64,000 nucleotides of DNA from Pseudarthrobacter sp. MM222 (lineage in GTDB: Bacteria > Actinomycetota > Actinomycetes > Actinomycetales > Micrococcaceae). The stretch covers positions 3,534,001 through 3,598,000 of the forward strand of contig NZ_OX352321.1 of assembly GCF_947090775.1 (NCBI RefSeq), in the 5' to 3' direction. Position 1 is the stretch's first letter, and the number at the start of each line of letters is the position of its first letter. The translations under genes were made by a program, and so were the position numbers. The notes under the pieces are model-generated. The model worked only from the letters and a program-made list of their open reading frames with translations, did not search any database and had not been told where the DNA came from. This document shows positions 53,874-63,983 of this stretch, piece by piece.

Positions 53874-55691
53874 ATGGCCAAGCAGACTCCGTTTTTCTCC
53901 TCCATCAGCCGTCTCTACCCCCACATCAGACCCATCTTGCCGCGCCTTGTCCTAGGCCTCCTCTGCGCGCTGCTGGCCAGCGTAGTGGCCCTGACGATCC
54001 CGCAGGTGCTCCGGGTCCTGGTCAATGAATCCCTCCGCCCGGGCGGGAGCACGGACGCGGTCTGGATCGCCTCCCTCGTGATCCTGGGCCTGGGGGTCGC
54101 CGAGGCGGGCCTTGTAGCGCTGCGGCGGCAGTTCGTGATCAATCCGGCCACCACGGTCGAGACCCGGATGCGGGTGTCCCTCTATGGCCAGCTCCAGGAC
54201 CTCACGGTGTCCTTCCATGACCGCTGGGGATCTGGACAACTGCTCTCCCGCGCCATGACCGACCTGAACTTCCTGCGCCGCTGGATGGCCTTCGGCGCAA
54301 TTATGCTCGTGGTCACCACCCTGACCGTCACGATCGGCGTCGTCGTGATGTTCTCGATGAGCTGGCAGCTGGCCCTGATCTTCCTGGCCGCCGCGGTGCC
54401 GATCATGATCTATGGCTTCCGCTTCCGCACCCACTACAGCAAGGTGGCCCGCCGCAGCCAGGACCAGGCCGGGGACCTCGCCACCACGGTCGAGGAGTCC
54501 GTGCACGGCATTCGTGTGCTCAAGGCCTTCGGCCGCAGCCGGGAGGCGCTGGAGAACTTCAATGAACAGGCCGAGGAGCTCCGCCAGACCGAGATCGCCA
54601 AGGCCAAGCACCTGGCCGTCTTCAGCCTGGTGGTCACCCTGCTGCCCGAACTGGCCCTCGGCGCCGGGCTCGTCGTCGGCGTGCTGCTGGCATCCACCGG
54701 GGAACTCAGCATCGGTGCGCTCGTGGCGTTCTTCGCCACCGCCGCCGTGATCGCGGCTCCGGTGGAGTTCTGCGGCATGCTGCTGGCCATGGCGCTGACG
54801 GCAAAGACCGCCATAGACCGCCATTTCGAGGTCATGGATTCGGTCAACACCATCACCAGCCCCCAGGACCCCCGCCGCCCCGCCGAGCTCCAGGGCGCCC
54901 TAAGCTTCCGCAACGCTGCCTTCGCCTTCGAGGACGCCGCCGACAAGCCGATTCTCAAGGACATCAGCCTGGACATCCACCCGGGCGAGACCATGGCGCT
55001 CGTCGGCATCACGGGCAGCGGCAAGAGCGCCCTGCTCCAGCTGGTCCCCCGGCTCTTCGAGGTCACGTCCGGCTCCATCACGATCGACGGCGTGGACCTG
55101 CGCGAATTCAGCGTGGAGGAACTGCGGACCGTCGTCGCCGTGGCCTTCGAGGACACCACCCTGTTTTCCAGTTCGGTCCGGGACAACGTGCTGCTCGGTG
55201 CCCCCGGCACCGCTTCCGAAGCGCACCGCGAGGAGGCCCTCGAGGAGGCGCTCGACGTCGCCCAGGCCCACTTCGCCTATTCCCTCCCCCGCGGGCTGGA
55301 CACACTAATCGGCGAGGAGGGGCTCAGCCTTTCCGGCGGCCAGCGCCAGCGCATCGCCCTGGCCCGCGCCATCGCCGCCCGGCCGAAGGTGCTGGTCCTC
55401 GACGACCCGCTCTCTGCCCTGGACGTCAACACGGAGGAACTCGTCGAGCACCGGCTGCGGGAGGTCCTCGCGGACACGACCACGCTGATCGTCGCCCATC
55501 GCCCGTCCACGGTGGCGCTGGCGGACCGGGTGGCGCTGCTCGAGGACGGCCGAATCACCGCCGTCGGCACCCACGCCGAACTGCTGGCGCAGAACACCCA
55601 TTACCGCTACGTCATCGCCAGCCTCGACCCCGAACCGCGGGACCTCGACTCCGAACTGTCAGACCTCGACGCCGAGGAGGTTTCCCGATGA
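53874..55691 (+). CDS. ABC exporter subunit A (degenerate ATP site)
   Basis: A 605-aa protein with six transmembrane helices (residues 1-310) and an ABC domain (340-580). Walker A is [13 protein letters not shown], signature [16 protein letters not shown], Walker [13 protein letters not shown]. The residue after Walker B Asp is Asp instead of the catalytic Glu, the pattern of the degenerate half-site of heterodimeric exporters. Overlaps the next gene by 4 bp, which has a normal site. The substrate is not known (drugs, lipids or peptides are all possible). Confidence 0.9.
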
Positions 55692-57517
55692 GCGCCGCCA
55701 CCTTCGGCACCGCCAACGAGGACAACGCACACCTGTCCAAGAGCGAGAGCAAGACCGTCCGGCGGCGCTCACTGGCCCTGCTGGGCTCCCTGATCCGCCC
55801 GGTCCGGCGCCGCTTCTGGCTGACCATCGCAGCGGTGGTGCTCTCCCAGGCCGCACGCGTGGCCGGACCTGCCCTGATCGCGTTCGGCATCGACCGGGCC
55901 CTGCCGGCCCTGCGCGCCGGCGACAATCTCCCGCTGGTGCTCACCGGCGCCGCCTACCTCGCCGCCGCCGTCGCGACGGCGGGGCTCACCGCCCTGTACG
56001 TGACCTCGACGGCGAGACTCAGCCAGGGGATGCTGCTGGACCTGCGCGTCCGGGTGTTCCGCCATACCCAGCGGCTTAGCCTGGAGTTCCACGAAAAATA
56101 CACCTCCGGACGCATCATCGCCCGGCAGACCTCGGACCTTGAGGCACTCCGCGAATTGCTGGACTCGGGGGTAAGTTCGCTCGCGTCCGGGATGCTGTTC
56201 ATGATGTTTACGGCCGCCACGGTGTTCGCGCTGGACTGGCGCAGCGGGCTGCTGGTGCTGGCGGCGGGCGTGCCGATGTATTTCCTGGCCCGCTGGTACC
56301 AGAAGCACTCCCAGATCGCGTTCCGCGAGTCACGCGTGGTCTCCGCCCGGCTGATTGTGCACTTCGTGGAGACCATGACCGGCATCCGCGCGGTCAAGGC
56401 CTTCCGCAAGGAACGCGAAAACACCGTCCGCTACACCGAGCTCGCCGAGGACTACCGCAAGGTCACCGTCCGCTCGATCAACCTCAACGGCATCTTCCAG
56501 CCCGGCCTGGTGCTGATCGGGAACGTCTGCGTCGCCGTCGTGCTGCTCTTCGGCGGCTTCCGGGTGCTGAGCGGCGACCTCGCCGTCGGCGTGCTGCTGG
56601 CCCTGATCCTGTCCACCAAACGTTTCTTCCAGCCGGTCGACCAGATGGCCATGTTCTACAACTCCTTCCAGAGCGCCCAGGCCGCCCTCGAAAAGGTCTC
56701 CGGGCTGCTCGAGGAAGTCCCCACCGTCCGCCCGCCCAAGAACCCGGTGGCCCTGCACGATGCGAAGGGCAGCATCGAGTTCCGCGGCGTCGAATTCCGT
56801 TACGGGAATGGTCCGGTGATCATCCCGACCATGGACCTGCACATCCCCGCCGGCCAAACCGTGGCCCTGGTGGGCCAGACCGGAGCCGGGAAATCGACGC
56901 TCGCCAAACTGATTGCCCGGTTTTACGACGTCTCCTCCGGGTCCCTGCTGCTCGACAGCGTGGACCTGCGCCAGCTCACGACGGCGGATCTGCGGCGCAA
57001 CGTTGTCATGGTCACCCAGGAGGCGTTCCTGTTCAGCGGCTCCGTGGCGGACAACATCGCCCTGGGCCGCCCCGAGGCGTCGCGGCAGGAGATCGAGGAT
57101 GCCGCCAGGGCGGTGGGTGCCCACGAGTTCATCGAGGAACTCCCGGAGGGCTATGACACGGACGTCAACAAGCGCGGCGGCCGCGTCTCGGCCGGCCAGC
57201 GACAGCTGATCAGCTTCGCCCGGGCCTTCCTCGCGCGTCCGGCCGTGCTGATCCTCGACGAGGCGACGTCCTCGCTGGACATCCCGTCCGAACGGCTCGT
57301 TCAGAACGGCCTCGCCCGGCTCCTGCAGGGCATCGGCAGCGACGCCGGCCGGACCGCACTTATCATCGCGCACCGCCTGTCCACGGTCGAGACCGCAGAC
57401 CGGGTGCTGGTAGTGCACGACGGTCGCGTCGTCGAGGACGGCACCCCGGAGCAACTGATCGGCGGCGGAGGGCGCTTTGCCCAGCTGCACGGAGCCTGGA
57501 AAGACTCGCTGGTCTGA
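55688..57517 (+). CDS. ABC exporter subunit B (canonical ATP site)
   Basis: A 609-aa partner of the preceding subunit. Six transmembrane helices (35-330) and an ABC domain with Walker [14 protein letters not shown], signature [14 protein letters not shown] and Walker [13 protein letters not shown] with canonical Glu. The signature (VSAGQ) deviates from LSGGQ. The ATG overlaps the upstream stop (ATGA). Together they form an asymmetric type IV exporter. A link to peptide export from the locus at 57.8 kb is possible but the peptide has its own Sec signal. Confidence 0.9.
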
Positions 57518-57615: not shown

Positions 57616-57692
57616 CGGGATGTGGCGCAGCTTGGTAGCGCGCGTCGTTCGGGACGACGAGGTCGCAGGTTCAAATCCTGTCATCCCGACCA
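57616..57692 (+). tRNA. tRNA-Pro (anticodon CGG)
   Basis: 77 nt including encoded CCA. Acceptor CGGGATG/CATCCCG, anticodon loop TTCGGGA with CGG, and T-loop TTCAAAT are all recognisable. The D-arm GCGC/GCGC fits. An intrinsic terminator follows. Confidence 0.95.
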
Positions 57693-57735: not shown

Positions 57736-57756
57736 GTCCCGGGTAGGGCTCCACAC

Positions 57757-57799
57757 AAAAAGAGCCCCGGAGCATGCTTCGCGCATGTCCCGGGGCTCC
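57757..57799 (-). terminator. Terminator after repeat-peptide gene
   Basis: On the minus strand a 9-bp stem (GAGCCCCGG/CCGGGGCTC, 57762-57770 and 57790-57798) with an inner CATGC/GCATG stem is followed by CTTTTTGTG. It lies 15 bp after the stop codon of the small secreted protein gene and shows that this gene is a transcription unit. Confidence 0.9.
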
Positions 57800-57813
57800 T
57801 CTGCAGGTTCTGC

Positions 57814-58053
57814 CTACATCGGGTCCGGCCAGTTGCCGATGTCGGGCGAGGACGTCATCGGGTCCGGCCAGTTGCCGATCGCCGAAAGGCTGCCCTTCGA
57901 ACTCATCGGGTCCGGCCAGTTGCCGATCGCCGAGGTGTGGCCCATGGGATCCGGCCAGTTACCTATGGCACTTACTGACAGCGCCGCCGGGGCCGCCGCG
58001 GCGAAAGCCAGGGCACCCGCCAGCAGGGCGCCGGCTGCAATCTTCTTCAACAT
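57814..58053 (-). CDS. Secreted four-repeat peptide precursor (IGNWPDPM)
   Basis: 79 aa. Sec signal peptide: MLKK, then a hydrophobic run (IAAGALLAGALAFAAAAPAA) with likely cleavage near AAPAA. The mature part has four exact copies of IGNWPDPM (residues 30-37, 43-50, 59-66 and 72-79), the last at the C-terminus, separated by Ser/Gly/Thr-rich linkers (GHTSA, SSKGSLSA, TSSPD). No Cys. Start ATG 58053 has GAGG 7 nt upstream; a consensus promoter and an intrinsic terminator flank it. Divergent from an XRE-TPR gene. Probable pheromone-type precursor; function not proven. Confidence 0.85.
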   Translation of the reverse strand: MLKKIAAGALLAGALAFAAAAPAALSVSAIGNWPDPMGHTSAIGNWPDPMSSKGSLSAIGNWPDPMTSSPDIGNWPDPM

Positions 58054-58102
58054 AGAGATCCTCAATAAGCGTCGGGGTCTTCACCAAGTCAGCACTACCT
58101 TG

Positions 58103-58142
58103 TTGACACACATTGTAAAATGATTTCCACAGAGACTGTCAA
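58103..58142 (-). promoter_or_regulatory. AT-rich divergent promoter of peptide/regulator pair
   Basis: On the minus strand TTGACA (58142-58137) and TACAAT (58117-58112), 19 bp apart, form a near-consensus sigma-A promoter for the peptide gene. TTGACA also occurs on the plus strand (58103-58108), making an inverted repeat TTGACA/TGTCAA that overlaps the promoter. Dyads CATT-GTAA-AATG (58111-58122) and CATT-N10-AATG (58144-58161) could be regulator sites. Confidence 0.6.
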
Positions 58143-58181
58143 GCATTTAGTACAAAGAATGTCCGGAATTAGGAGGTATCC

Positions 58182-59462
58182 GTGGGGAACGGATTTGGGG
58201 AGAAGCTCCGCGCGGAACGGCTGGATCGGGGACTCACGCAGGCGGAACTGGGCCGGGATTTGTACTCGCCCAGCTATATCTCTCTGCTCGAAACCGGACG
58301 CCGCGAACCGACCGCTGATGTCATCGAAGAGCTTGCCCGCCGCCTCGAACTTGCTCCCAAGGCCCTGGAGGCCTGGAGCCAACCGGTCTCCGTCAGCGAC
58401 GCCGAGTACGTGCTGGCCGGGCTGTATGCCCGGCAGGCCTGGGACCTGAGGGACTACCCGCTGGCGGCCACCCACGCCGCCGCAGCGGCCCAGATCGCAC
58501 TCGAGGCCAAGAACACCAGCGCCTGGTGGAACATGACCTACATGCAGGCGGAATGCCTCATGAAGCAAGGCGAGCTCAAGGAATGCCAGAACCTCGTGCA
58601 GCGGCTGCTGGACCACCCCATGGCGGCCGAATCGGCCGGCCTGGGCGTCCGGGCCCGGCAGATGCTGGCTGCCGTCTGCCACGGGCGCGGGGAACTTGCA
58701 GTCGCCGTCGCGCACGCCCAGGAAGCGGTGCGGCTGTGCGCGGACCTGCCCAAGGGATCCACCCTCATCATCGGGGCGCTTCGGGCGCTGATCGGGGCGC
58801 TGGCCGAAAGCGGGCGGCTGGACGAGGCCTGGCAGTACTGTCAGGACATGAACGCGCAGATGGACGATCATTCGATGACCCAGCTCGCCGGCGAAGTCGC
58901 CTGGGTAATCGGGAACGTCGCTTTTATGCGGCACGACTACGCGGAAGGGATCAAGTACCACGAGCGCGCCGCGCAGATGCTCTCCCCCGCGAACGATATC
59001 GATCTGTGGGCGCGCTTCAACAAGGCGTCCGCCGCCGTGAGATTGTCCTCGGGCATTGTGGAACCGGAGACGCTGACCTCGATCGAACGCGCCGAGCTGG
59101 CGCTTTCCATTGTCGGCGGCAACAGGACGGACCAGCTTGAAGTGGCCTTCATCCGGGCCCGCTGGCTCTACCTGACCGGGGACATTGTCGCGGCAGTCCA
59201 GAAGCTGCGCGAGATCCACGCCGAACACGATGCCCTGGCCCGGCACATCGCCGGCGAGGTGGCTCTCCTGCTCGGCAAGGCGCTCAAGGCCGCCGGCGAA
59301 TCCGATGAGGCCCTGATCTACCTCGACGAGGCGCAGCAGGAGTTCAGCGCAGCCGGAGCCTCGGACCGGGTCCAGCAGGCCCTGGACGCGGTGCTCGAGA
59401 TCCGGCTGGCGAAGCGCCGTGCCGAGGCGGCCGCCTCGGCGAGCACTTCGCCGAAAAGCTAG
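58182..59462 (+). CDS. XRE-HTH plus TPR regulator (RRNPP-like)
   Basis: 426 aa. Residues 1-60 form an XRE/cI-type HTH (FGEKLRAERLDRGLTQAELG, SYISLLETGRREPTADVIEE). About residues 70-410 are repeated helical hairpins of TPR type (AAAAQIALEAKNTSAWWNMT, CQDMNAQMDDHSMTQLAGEV and similar). This HTH-TPR architecture is that of RRNPP regulators (Rgg, NprR, PlcR, PrgX), which bind short re-imported peptides. The start is GTG 58182 with AGGAGG 5 nt upstream. It is divergent from the repeat-peptide gene with 128 bp between them. Peptide binding is inferred from architecture and context. Confidence 0.88.
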   Translation: MGNGFGEKLRAERLDRGLTQAELGRDLYSPSYISLLETGRREPTADVIEELARRLELAPKALEAWSQPVSVSDAEYVLAGLYARQAWDLRDYPLAATHAAAAAQIALEAKNTSAWWNMTYMQAECLMKQGELKECQNLVQRLLDHPMAAESAGLGVRARQMLAAVCHGRGELAVAVAHAQEAVRLCADLPKGSTLIIGALRALIGALAESGRLDEAWQYCQDMNAQMDDHSMTQLAGEVAWVIGNVAFMRHDYAEGIKYHERAAQMLSPANDIDLWARFNKASAAVRLSSGIVEPETLTSIERAELALSIVGGNRTDQLEVAFIRARWLYLTGDIVAAVQKLREIHAEHDALARHIAGEVALLLGKALKAAGESDEALIYLDEAQQEFSAAGASDRVQQALDAVLEIRLAKRRAEAAASASTSPKS

Positions 59463-61740: not shown

Positions 61741-61794
61741 ACTTCCCAAGGGTACTTTGTGGACCCGGCAGGCTCCTAAGCTGTGTCCACCACT

Positions 61795-62331
61795 GGACAT
61801 GCCCAGCCCCGTGGTCCATGGCCGGAGGGCATGCCCAGTCCTCGGACCGGGCGCGGAACATGTTCATTCCTCACGCCTGCGAGCGCGGAACATGCCCAGT
61901 CCTGGCCTCGAGCAATGGACACAATGGCACTATGCCCATCCCTGGGCCCGAGCGGAGGGCATGTCCCGTGCGCCGGCGACAGTGCGGTCCGAGGGCTCGT
62001 GCGCGCTCGAACGGATTCTGCTTGGACATGCCCAGTCCCGTGGTCCATGGCCGGAGGGCATGCCGAGTCCTCGTACCGGCCGCGGGACATGTCCAGTCCT
62101 CACGCCTGCGAGCGCGGGACATGCCCAGTCCTGGCCGCGAGCAATGGACACAATGGCACTATGTCCATCCCTGGGCGTGAACGGAGAGCATGTCCCGTGG
62201 GACGCGGACAATCCGCGGGCCGAGGGCTTGTACGCGCTGGAACGGACGCGCTGGACATGCCCAGTCCTGGCCGCGAGCAATGGACACAATGGCACTATGT
62301 CCATCCCTGGGCGCGAGCGGAGAGCATGTTC
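61795..62331 (+). repeat. Decamer/dyad array, cluster 3 (tandemly expanded)
   Basis: Occupies most of the 638-bp divergent gap between purD and the oxidoreductase gene. Twelve RRRCATGYYY-like decamers start at 61795, 61827, 61856, 61888, 61957, 62024, 62056, 62085, 62117, 62186, 62253 and 62322. Three 23-bp dyads are at 61916-61938, 62145-62167 and 62281-62303. Unit order B1-A1-B2-A2-A3: B (91-92 bp) at 61795 and 62024, A (about 136 bp) at 61888, 62117 and 62253. The B1-A1 pair is repeated with a 229-bp period and A once more alone. Confidence 0.92.
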
Positions 62332-62378
62332 CGTGGGACGCGGACAATCCGCGGGGCTCGCGGCTACGAACACCCTGT

Positions 62379-63983
62379 ATGAAGAAGCCCAGCATGCAGA
62401 ACAACACCCGGCAGCCTCGGAAGCAGCGCGGAGGTGCCAACGCGCTGGCCGCGCTGGCAGGTGTGGCCGCCGCCGGCGTCGTCCTGTCCGTGGCGGAACT
62501 GATCGGCGCCTTTTTCACGGCACGGGCGACCCCGCTGATCGCCCTCGGCTCGACCTTCATCGACTTCACGCCGCCGTGGATGAAAGACTTCGCGATCGCC
62601 ACCTTCGGCACGAACGACAAAGCCGCGCTCTTCGTCGGCATGGGAGTGACCATCCTGCTCCTCGCCTGCGTGCTGGGCGTGGTGGCCTACCGCAAGTGGG
62701 CGCTGGGCGTCGCCGGGGTGCTGCTGATGGGCGGCGTGATCGTGGCCAGTGTGGTCACTCGGGCCAGCGTCAAGCCGCTTGACGCGGTTCCTTCGCTGAT
62801 CGGCACTGCCGCCGGCTTGCTCGTGCTCCGGCTCCTGATCACCCGGCTATGGCGGATGCGTGAATGGCCCGACGCGGCCGCGGATGTAGCGGCGAAGGAA
62901 CCGGACCGGCCCGCCACCAGCCGGCGCGCCTTTTTCGCTGCGACCGGCATCACCGCGGCAGCTTCGGCCATCGCCGCAACCGGCGGCCGACTGCTCAGCG
63001 CGGCCCGCAGCAACGTGGCCCAGGCCCGCGAATCCCTGCAGCTGCCCACGCCGGCCAAGGCCGCGCCGCCCGTGCCCGCCGGGGTGCAGTCGAAGGCACC
63101 GGGCGTGACGCCGTGGCTGACGCCCAACAAGGATTTCTACCGCATCGACACCGCCCTGAGTGTGCCGGAAATCAACGTCCAGGACTGGGAATTGCGCGTC
63201 CACGGGCTGGTGGAGCAGGAGGTCCGGCTCACGTTCCAGGACCTGCTGGACGCGGAACTGATCGAATCCCACGTGAGCCTGACCTGCGTCTCCAACCCGG
63301 TCGGCGGCAACCTGGCGGGCAACGCCAAATGGCTCGGCCTGCCCATCCGCGAGGTGCTCAAGATGGCCCGGCCCAAAGAGGGCGCCGACATGGTGCTCTC
63401 CACCTCGATCGACGGCTTCAGCGCCTCCACCCCGCTGGAAGTGCTGACGGATGACCGCGACGCCATCCTCGCCATCGGCATGAACGGCGAACCCCTCCCC
63501 CTCGAACACGGCTACCCGGTGCGGATGGTGGTCCCCGGCCTGTACGGCTTCGTCTCCGCGACCAAATGGGTGGTGGACCTCGAAGTCACGCGCTTCGCCG
63601 ACAGCAAGGCCTACTGGACGCAGCGCGGCTGGTCCGAACGCGGACCGATCAAGACCATGGCCCGCATTGAGGTCCCCAAATCCTTCGCACAGGTACCCGC
63701 CGGCCGCGTCGCGATCGGCGGCACCGCCTGGGCCCAGACCCGCGGCATCACCAAAGTCGAGGTGCAGATCGACGACGGACCCTGGACCGAGGCGACGCTC
63801 TCCGACGAGGCTTCCCTCATCACCTGGCGGCAGTGGTCCTTCGACTGGGAGGCGACCCCCGGCCCGCACTACATCAAGGCCCGAGCAACCGACGGCACCG
63901 GCGAAGTCCAGACCGACAAGCGCGCGGATCCGGTCCCCGACGGCGCCTCCGGCTGGCAGTCGGTTATGGTGACCGTGCAATAA
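62379..63983 (+). CDS. Molybdopterin-dependent oxidoreductase (sulfite oxidase family)
   Basis: About 534 aa. An N-terminal membrane part has four helices (residues 20-160). Then a TAT-like SRRAFFAATG segment leads to an oxidoreductase molybdopterin domain with Moco-binding Cys in LTCVSNPVGG and DLEVTRFADSKAYW, and a C-terminal Mo-co dimerisation domain (VEVQIDDGPWTEATL). The likely role is an extracytoplasmic oxidoreductase. Start uncertain (ATG 62379 or 62394, weak RBS). After the stop, CGGGAG and a TTG at 63996 suggest another gene starting at the window edge. Confidence 0.88.
   Translation: MKKPSMQNNTRQPRKQRGGANALAALAGVAAAGVVLSVAELIGAFFTARATPLIALGSTFIDFTPPWMKDFAIATFGTNDKAALFVGMGVTILLLACVLGVVAYRKWALGVAGVLLMGGVIVASVVTRASVKPLDAVPSLIGTAAGLLVLRLLITRLWRMREWPDAAADVAAKEPDRPATSRRAFFAATGITAAASAIAATGGRLLSAARSNVAQARESLQLPTPAKAAPPVPAGVQSKAPGVTPWLTPNKDFYRIDTALSVPEINVQDWELRVHGLVEQEVRLTFQDLLDAELIESHVSLTCVSNPVGGNLAGNAKWLGLPIREVLKMARPKEGADMVLSTSIDGFSASTPLEVLTDDRDAILAIGMNGEPLPLEHGYPVRMVVPGLYGFVSATKWVVDLEVTRFADSKAYWTQRGWSERGPIKTMARIEVPKSFAQVPAGRVAIGGTAWAQTRGITKVEVQIDDGPWTEATLSDEASLITWRQWSFDWEATPGPHYIKARATDGTGEVQTDKRADPVPDGASGWQSVMVTVQ

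Follow-up and report, generated by a model that had tools for sequence, protein, structure and literature searches.

A multi-copy peptide precursor, predicted to be secreted, and its likely TPR receptor recur across Micrococcaceae

In a 64,000-nt stretch of the Pseudarthrobacter sp. MM222 genome (contig NZ_OX352321.1, positions 3,534,001–3,598,000; hereafter the window), two divergent genes encode a small protein carrying four copies of the peptide IGNWPDPM and a regulator built of a helix-turn-helix (HTH) domain and tetratricopeptide repeats (TPR). We propose, with a probability of roughly 80%, that they form a four-copy peptide precursor and its likely TPR receptor, a secreted-peptide signalling pair whose mode of action resembles that of RRNPP systems in Firmicutes. 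The pair likely represents a signalling family, because the pairing recurs in many Micrococcaceae and the repeated peptide has usually changed in all copies together.

The precursor gene (57814–58053, minus strand; ATG at 58053, stop at 57814) encodes 79 amino acids. Two lysines, then a hydrophobic run with AAPAALSVSA at its end, make up a Sec-like signal (MLKKIAAGALLAGALAFAAAAPAALSVSA), the first IGNWPDPM copy follows directly, and short polar linkers separate the copies, the fourth of which forms the C terminus. Three copies are identical in DNA and one uses other codons, differing at synonymous sites only. The small secreted open reading frame (ORF) with four exact repeats reported in the initial annotation is therefore present, its export signal being predicted, here and throughout, by a hydrophobicity rule rather than by SignalP. 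The intrinsic terminator reported after the gene (57762–57798, minus strand, with a T tail to about 57757) is likewise supported: positions 57745–57816 of the minus strand fold at −39.7 kcal/mol (z = −4.9), and TTTTT follows the stem. A simple terminator scan, covering loops of 3–8 only, listed none at this gene.

The divergent gene (58182–59462, plus strand, GTG start) encodes a regulator of 426 amino acids, the likely peptide receptor. As the initial annotation had it, Pfam finds both an HTH (HTH_31, E = 2.3e-11; HTH_3, 4.1e-10) and TPR (TPR_12, 4e-7; TPR_14, 1.9e-5). Two hallmarks of RRNPPA receptors are thus seen, namely an N-terminal HTH (absent in Rap), matched by HTH_31, and a TPR superhelix, for which TPR_12 and TPR_14 exceed the Pfam cut-offs. 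In the AlphaFold2 (AF2) model, residues 70–420 are helical with pLDDT mostly 80–96, and a fold search aligns the model with Rap, NprR and AimR. On the TPR concave face, residues W241, N245, H260, W276 and N280 are shared without exception by the diverged receptors compared (24 of 24). Sequence profiles gave only sub-threshold matches: RNPP_C scored 11.7 bits in Pfam against a cut-off of 26.5 (E = 0.19), and a profile search of the PDB returned RapJ at E = 0.13. Because sequence-profile homology to RRNPPA members was not found, we do not file the regulator as a member; the RRNPP likeness proposed earlier holds for the likely mode of action and a compatible fold, not for membership at the sequence level.

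The two genes share a non-coding region of 128 bp (58054–58181), in which a promoter and dyads had been reported. On the minus strand, a conserved promoter-like element (58112–58142) consists of TTGACA (58142–58137), a 17-nt spacer and TTTACAAT (58119–58112), and to judge by its sequence it is likely the precursor promoter. TTGACA-17-TTTACAAT was matched 144 times within receptor loci, with a separate count for each of any loci that overlap, and once elsewhere, at what also proved to be a receptor locus. Inverted TTGACA (58103–58108) and TGTCAA (58137–58142) bound a candidate operator (58103–58142) that is near-invariant in 27 aligned loci; the string TTGACA ... TTGTAAAAT ... TGTCAAG is common to these intergenic regions with few departures. 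The arms, which may be operator half-sites, belong to an imperfect 15-nt dyad (73%). A simple scan of the shared region listed no sigma-70 promoter.

A lack of co-occurrence in relatives had been named beforehand as an observation that would refute the interpretation; instead, the two genes were found together across the genus and, with changed repeats, in 15 of the 17 receptor-bearing genera of the family. When each species was represented by a single genome, relatives of the small protein appeared at 19 loci. Two of these are leaderless satellites (see below); at the remaining 17 a receptor homologue of 82–93% identity lies nearby on the opposite strand. Of the 198 genomes of the genus, 197 have a receptor homologue (E ≤ 1e-30). 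DNA encoding GNWPDP was found in 190 of the 198, anywhere in the genome and with its position read for part of the matches, as against 2 of 198 for a backwards control pattern, so its recurrence is not chance. Seven of the eight genomes without the motif carry a variant at the IGNWPDPM position (SGNWPNPM in four; TGIWPDPM, TGNWPNPM and SGNWPYPV in one each), and the eighth, G155, gave no receptor match either in the genus search.

Across the family, 88 of 197 genomes contain a receptor homologue (E ≤ 1e-20), and 17 of the 32 genera are represented among them. We read 148 receptor loci, comprising top matches and added regions rather than all matches, and at 128 of them a small divergent ORF with a signal peptide and a WP dipeptide lies within 650 bp, by a rule that was fixed once the first peptides were known. 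Such an adjacent small propeptide gene with an export signal is a further trait of RRNPPA systems. Signal ORFs containing WP made up 128 of 140 in the divergent 650-bp zone, but just 11 of 98 in the rest of these loci. Among the 20 misses, four (L103, L159, L160 and L177) carry a precursor that the filter excluded, and L191 and L200 have weak leaderless divergent candidates ending in GDWPHAD and VGNWPD, leaving 14 of the 148 loci in which no precursor candidate was found. For 11 of the 16 loci lacking a secreted precursor the genome has another receptor match; in five it is the sole match, four of these being in genus g24, where one of five loci read is positive. The two genera without a secreted WP precursor beside the receptor, g10 and g32, have weak leaderless candidates only.

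Outside the family, candidates in f17, a family of the same order, are a threefold TVGGSWPT and, at another place, a C-terminal SDTWPA. Two of four f17 loci (L234 and L235) have a candidate and two do not; among seven further loci outside the family, one was seen only in L252 and L250. In a phylum sample, 6 of 396 genomes matched, two of them from the genus itself. These wider searches scored 4–6 candidates per genome, which makes absence there weak. L250, from family f63 of the same phylum, pairs a weak receptor homologue with a divergent signal-like ORF ending in GGNWPFFDD, which may be chance.

The repeat cores vary across the receptor loci and are nonetheless constrained. They include GNWPDPM, GNWPDPA, GNWPDAV, GNWPDRF and GDWPH (eight copies each for the last two), GEWPH, WIWPD, GGLWPY, GGNWPY and NNNWPL, besides single C-terminal cores such as IGWWPN, AGNWPH and VNNWPG; precursors hold one to eight copies, many loci having a single C-terminal one. 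A loose copy rule adds six degenerate copies to the core count (five precursors contain GNWADQL, one GNSPDSV). Under this rule, the eight-residue cores of 87 distinct precursors differ by 685 synonymous and 91 nonsynonymous codon pairs; the three core positions not used in copy finding gave 277 and 72. In the linkers, taken as the three codons after each core in 86 precursors, the counts were 63 synonymous and 265 nonsynonymous. A stricter pattern, which fixes most positions and so undercounts changes, gave 655 versus 34 for the core and a core identity of 0.985 within precursors and 0.870 between them. From the core and linker counts we conclude that the peptide is held and the linkers are not, and that copies change together, though not absolutely. 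Recent DNA duplication as the sole cause of the identical repeats was rejected on the synonymous differences.

The MM222 genome also encodes a second receptor homologue (locus L125; 340 amino acids, 39% identical), without an HTH by Pfam, whose divergent precursor carries four PGWWPDAK copies. This paralogous pair is an independent repeat of the design and therefore supports the interpretation of the first. The HTH-less paralogue is found in 46 of 121 genomes (E ≤ 1e-80), with more diverged HTH-less forms in others. Where the receptor is at least 75% like that of the window, the position ahead of WP holds N or I (57 of 57 loci); where it is at least 44% like the paralogue, that position holds W or Y (35 of 35). 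Taking the 128 positive loci together, N or I stands there in 77 of 79 with an HTH-type receptor, and W or Y in 38 of 49 with an HTH-less one, the 11 exceptions all being in other genera; these counts are descriptive, since the rows are related by descent and not independent. A scan for receptor switch positions is weak beyond residue 203, because contig ends truncate some rows.

In many genomes the same core also occurs away from the receptor locus, in small ORFs without a signal peptide, which we call satellites; our survey covers part of the genome matches, namely those among the matches listed. They take the form of MQDNNRLIGNWPDPMSKGGI, of ORFs beginning MSTH with three to four copies, or of MNRIGNWPDPM, and some can be read as 11–20 amino acids. 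The receptor-locus promoter element was not found ahead of satellite ORFs. Satellites adjoin differing genes. That they keep the core amid otherwise unrelated sequence, together with the range of copy number and the many single C-terminal copies, speaks against a structural or cell-wall-binding repeat protein that the adjacent HTH–TPR gene regulates by happenstance; secreted repeat proteins are common in general, and we still give that explanation almost no weight.

The residue before the core G agrees between the main precursor and the satellite in 33 of 37 genomes (I/I in 25, V/V in 8; Fisher p = 1.3e-5, uncorrected for kinship), and the four mismatches all have I in the main precursor and V in the satellite. 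One V/V genome has a further G from the satellite at L291, which has no Shine–Dalgarno (SD) sequence, reads GGNWPDPA and was kept in the comparison. Single GNWPDP matches at L095, L098, L288, L292, L293, L294, L299, L301, L307, L315 and L316 offered no plausible small ORF, were judged chance and were left out. We considered satellites as attenuator upstream ORFs and found this less likely: nine of 15 loci face a convergent gene, three (L092, L094 and L096) have a codirectional downstream gene, and the layout at the others is ambiguous.

Several satellites have particular settings. Some contain a core of the IGWWP or IGFWP type besides IGNWPDPM; at L093, L094, L305, L358, L367 and L369, IGNWPDPM and IGWWP cores stand in one leaderless ORF, as though it were meant for both receptor types. 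In G019, G065, G115, G148 and G158, the five genomes with two-core satellites in which it was read, the precursor of the HTH-less receptor ends in IGWWPN or IGWWPD. Tiny ORFs ending in IGNWPDPM diverge from a sensor histidine kinase gene at L089 and L091 (Pfam for L091 only), and at L097, L099 and L100 an MQ...IGNWPDPM satellite is convergent with a gene for a beta-lactamase-family protein (Pfam for L097 only).

Satellites of this kind could mean that the repeat acts only inside the cell, with the TPR protein binding IGNWPDPM in cytoplasmic proteins for titration or sensing, export merely removing the peptide and no signal passing between cells. Same-core leaderless ORFs in many genomes, some of a mere 11–20 residues, would fit, as would the leaderless divergent candidates at L191 and L200, beside receptors of other genera. 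However, the signal-peptide precursor is kept at 128 of 148 receptor loci, some with up to eight copies, and exporting every copy would be a costly way of mere removal. We therefore regard a purely intracellular role as unlikely, and favour secreted-peptide signalling.

Many satellites stand behind a structured RNA leader, present at 35 of 52 satellite loci (34 by its tail pattern and L308 by a model) and absent at 17; examples ahead of leaderless peptide ORFs are L070:1689–1791 (minus strand), L093, L097, L312 and others. The leader runs CCNGACTGA ... GGTC, hairpin, GACC ... hairpin ... TCAGTCAGGAG-ATG, and its closing stem includes the SD region. Across the loci examined, CAGTCAGGAG stands at 39 distinct places, 38 of which precede an ATG, and one leader folds with z = −5.67. 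Rfam, searched with 15 loci, gave no match to the leader near the gathering score, and a few sub-threshold matches elsewhere or on the opposite strand. At E ≤ 1e-3 the leader model matches 97 of 179 genomes, including opposite-strand matches and a weaker second class, and has no match in the genome of the window. All 18 strong matches read open a GNWPDP ORF. The second class (L376:1556–1659, plus strand, and 16 further loci, L377–L392) precedes a secreted Ala-rich protein of 164–545 amino acids in 11 of 16 cases read and a short ORF without WP in five. In the satellite-leader alignment (A6), seven pairs show double changes, a number reached by 265 of 500 shuffles, so that covariation is weak, and paired cells and covariation score lie above all 500; in the second-class alignment (A7), 19 of 26 pairs do, reached by none of 500, which is strong. 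Both alignments were fitted to the leader model. The leader is likely a new cis-regulatory RNA, as far as its sequence tells.

A tRNA gene (57616–57689, plus strand) flanks the system in the window, and upstream of the system lie two adjacent genes for ABC exporter half-transporters (53874–57517, plus strand; Pfam), proteins that possibly act in peptide export. These exporters, and a small, repeated, exported-looking product, would also suit an antimicrobial, bacteriocin-like peptide with the regulator as controller or immunity switch. Against this, the core is short, little varied within the genus and present in nearly every genome, and receptor type tracks core within the genus, which makes an antimicrobial very improbable. 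Similar repeats occur at 61780–62450 of the window, where both strands give ORF readings of the kind GHAQSWPRAMDTMALCPSLG; comparable readings lie downstream of the HTH-less receptor at L021 and at L143.

Under the signalling interpretation, Sec would export the precursor, signal peptidase would cut it, probably between SVSA and the first copy, and other proteases would free several identical peptides. An oligopeptide permease would re-import these for binding to the TPR concave face, around W241, N245, H260, W276 and N280; binding would alter HTH contact with the TTGACA/TGTCAA region and thereby control the precursor, the receptor and further targets. The HTH-less paralogue and PGWWPDAK could form a second, separately addressed channel acting via protein contact, and leaderless satellites might supply the same receptor from inside or via another export route. 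More speculatively, Micrococcaceae might share a private peptide language of WP cores, with one variant per TPR receptor, HTH-type or Rap-like, and with leaderless genes, some bearing both cores, adding the same words internally under the control of a new RNA switch that sequesters the SD; a single receptor would then integrate the population signal with the internal state. If the signalling interpretation is right, a near-universal pair in Arthrobacter relatives would give actinobacteria a peptide language, and its many natural receptor–peptide variants would be a ready data set for decoding TPR–peptide specificity.

Among Firmicutes, RRNPP/RRNPPA systems include Rap–Phr, NprR–NprX, PlcR–PapR, PrgX, Rgg–SHP, ComR–ComS and AimR–AimP. 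Like them, the present system pairs a TPR protein, with or without an HTH, with a small neighbouring precursor that bears a signal peptide, often places the peptide at the precursor C terminus, and has HTH and HTH-less forms, as in NprR/PlcR versus Rap. It differs in its actinobacterial host, in a sub-threshold RNPP_C match, and in having its two genes diverge from one conserved promoter region. Two published accounts (PMC10075063, PMC9765709) assign RRNPP signalling to Firmicutes and present quorum sensing in actinobacteria as typically relying on small molecules; in the open-licence literature we found no description of a GNWPDP-type motif or an actinobacterial RRNPP pair. Several pheromone copies per secreted propeptide are shared with the tandemly duplicated Phr3T and Phr105 (excerpts of PMC11343458) and with repeated NprR, AimR, PlcR and Rap propeptides (excerpts of PMC9765709). 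Unlike in the tandem Phr propeptides, as far as those excerpts go, multi-copy precursors are common here, with 86 distinct precursors of 2–6 copies and a maximum of eight. RRNPPA pheromones are described in the same part of PMC9765709 as fast-evolving, whereas the WP core is kept family-wide. Finally, RopB reads leaderless communication peptides, according to the available part of PMC10518010, and our satellites likewise encode a signal-type peptide without a signal sequence; unlike the RopB peptides as presented there, they are extra copies of a precursor-borne peptide, lie away from the receptor and, at 35 of 52 loci, stand behind an RNA leader.
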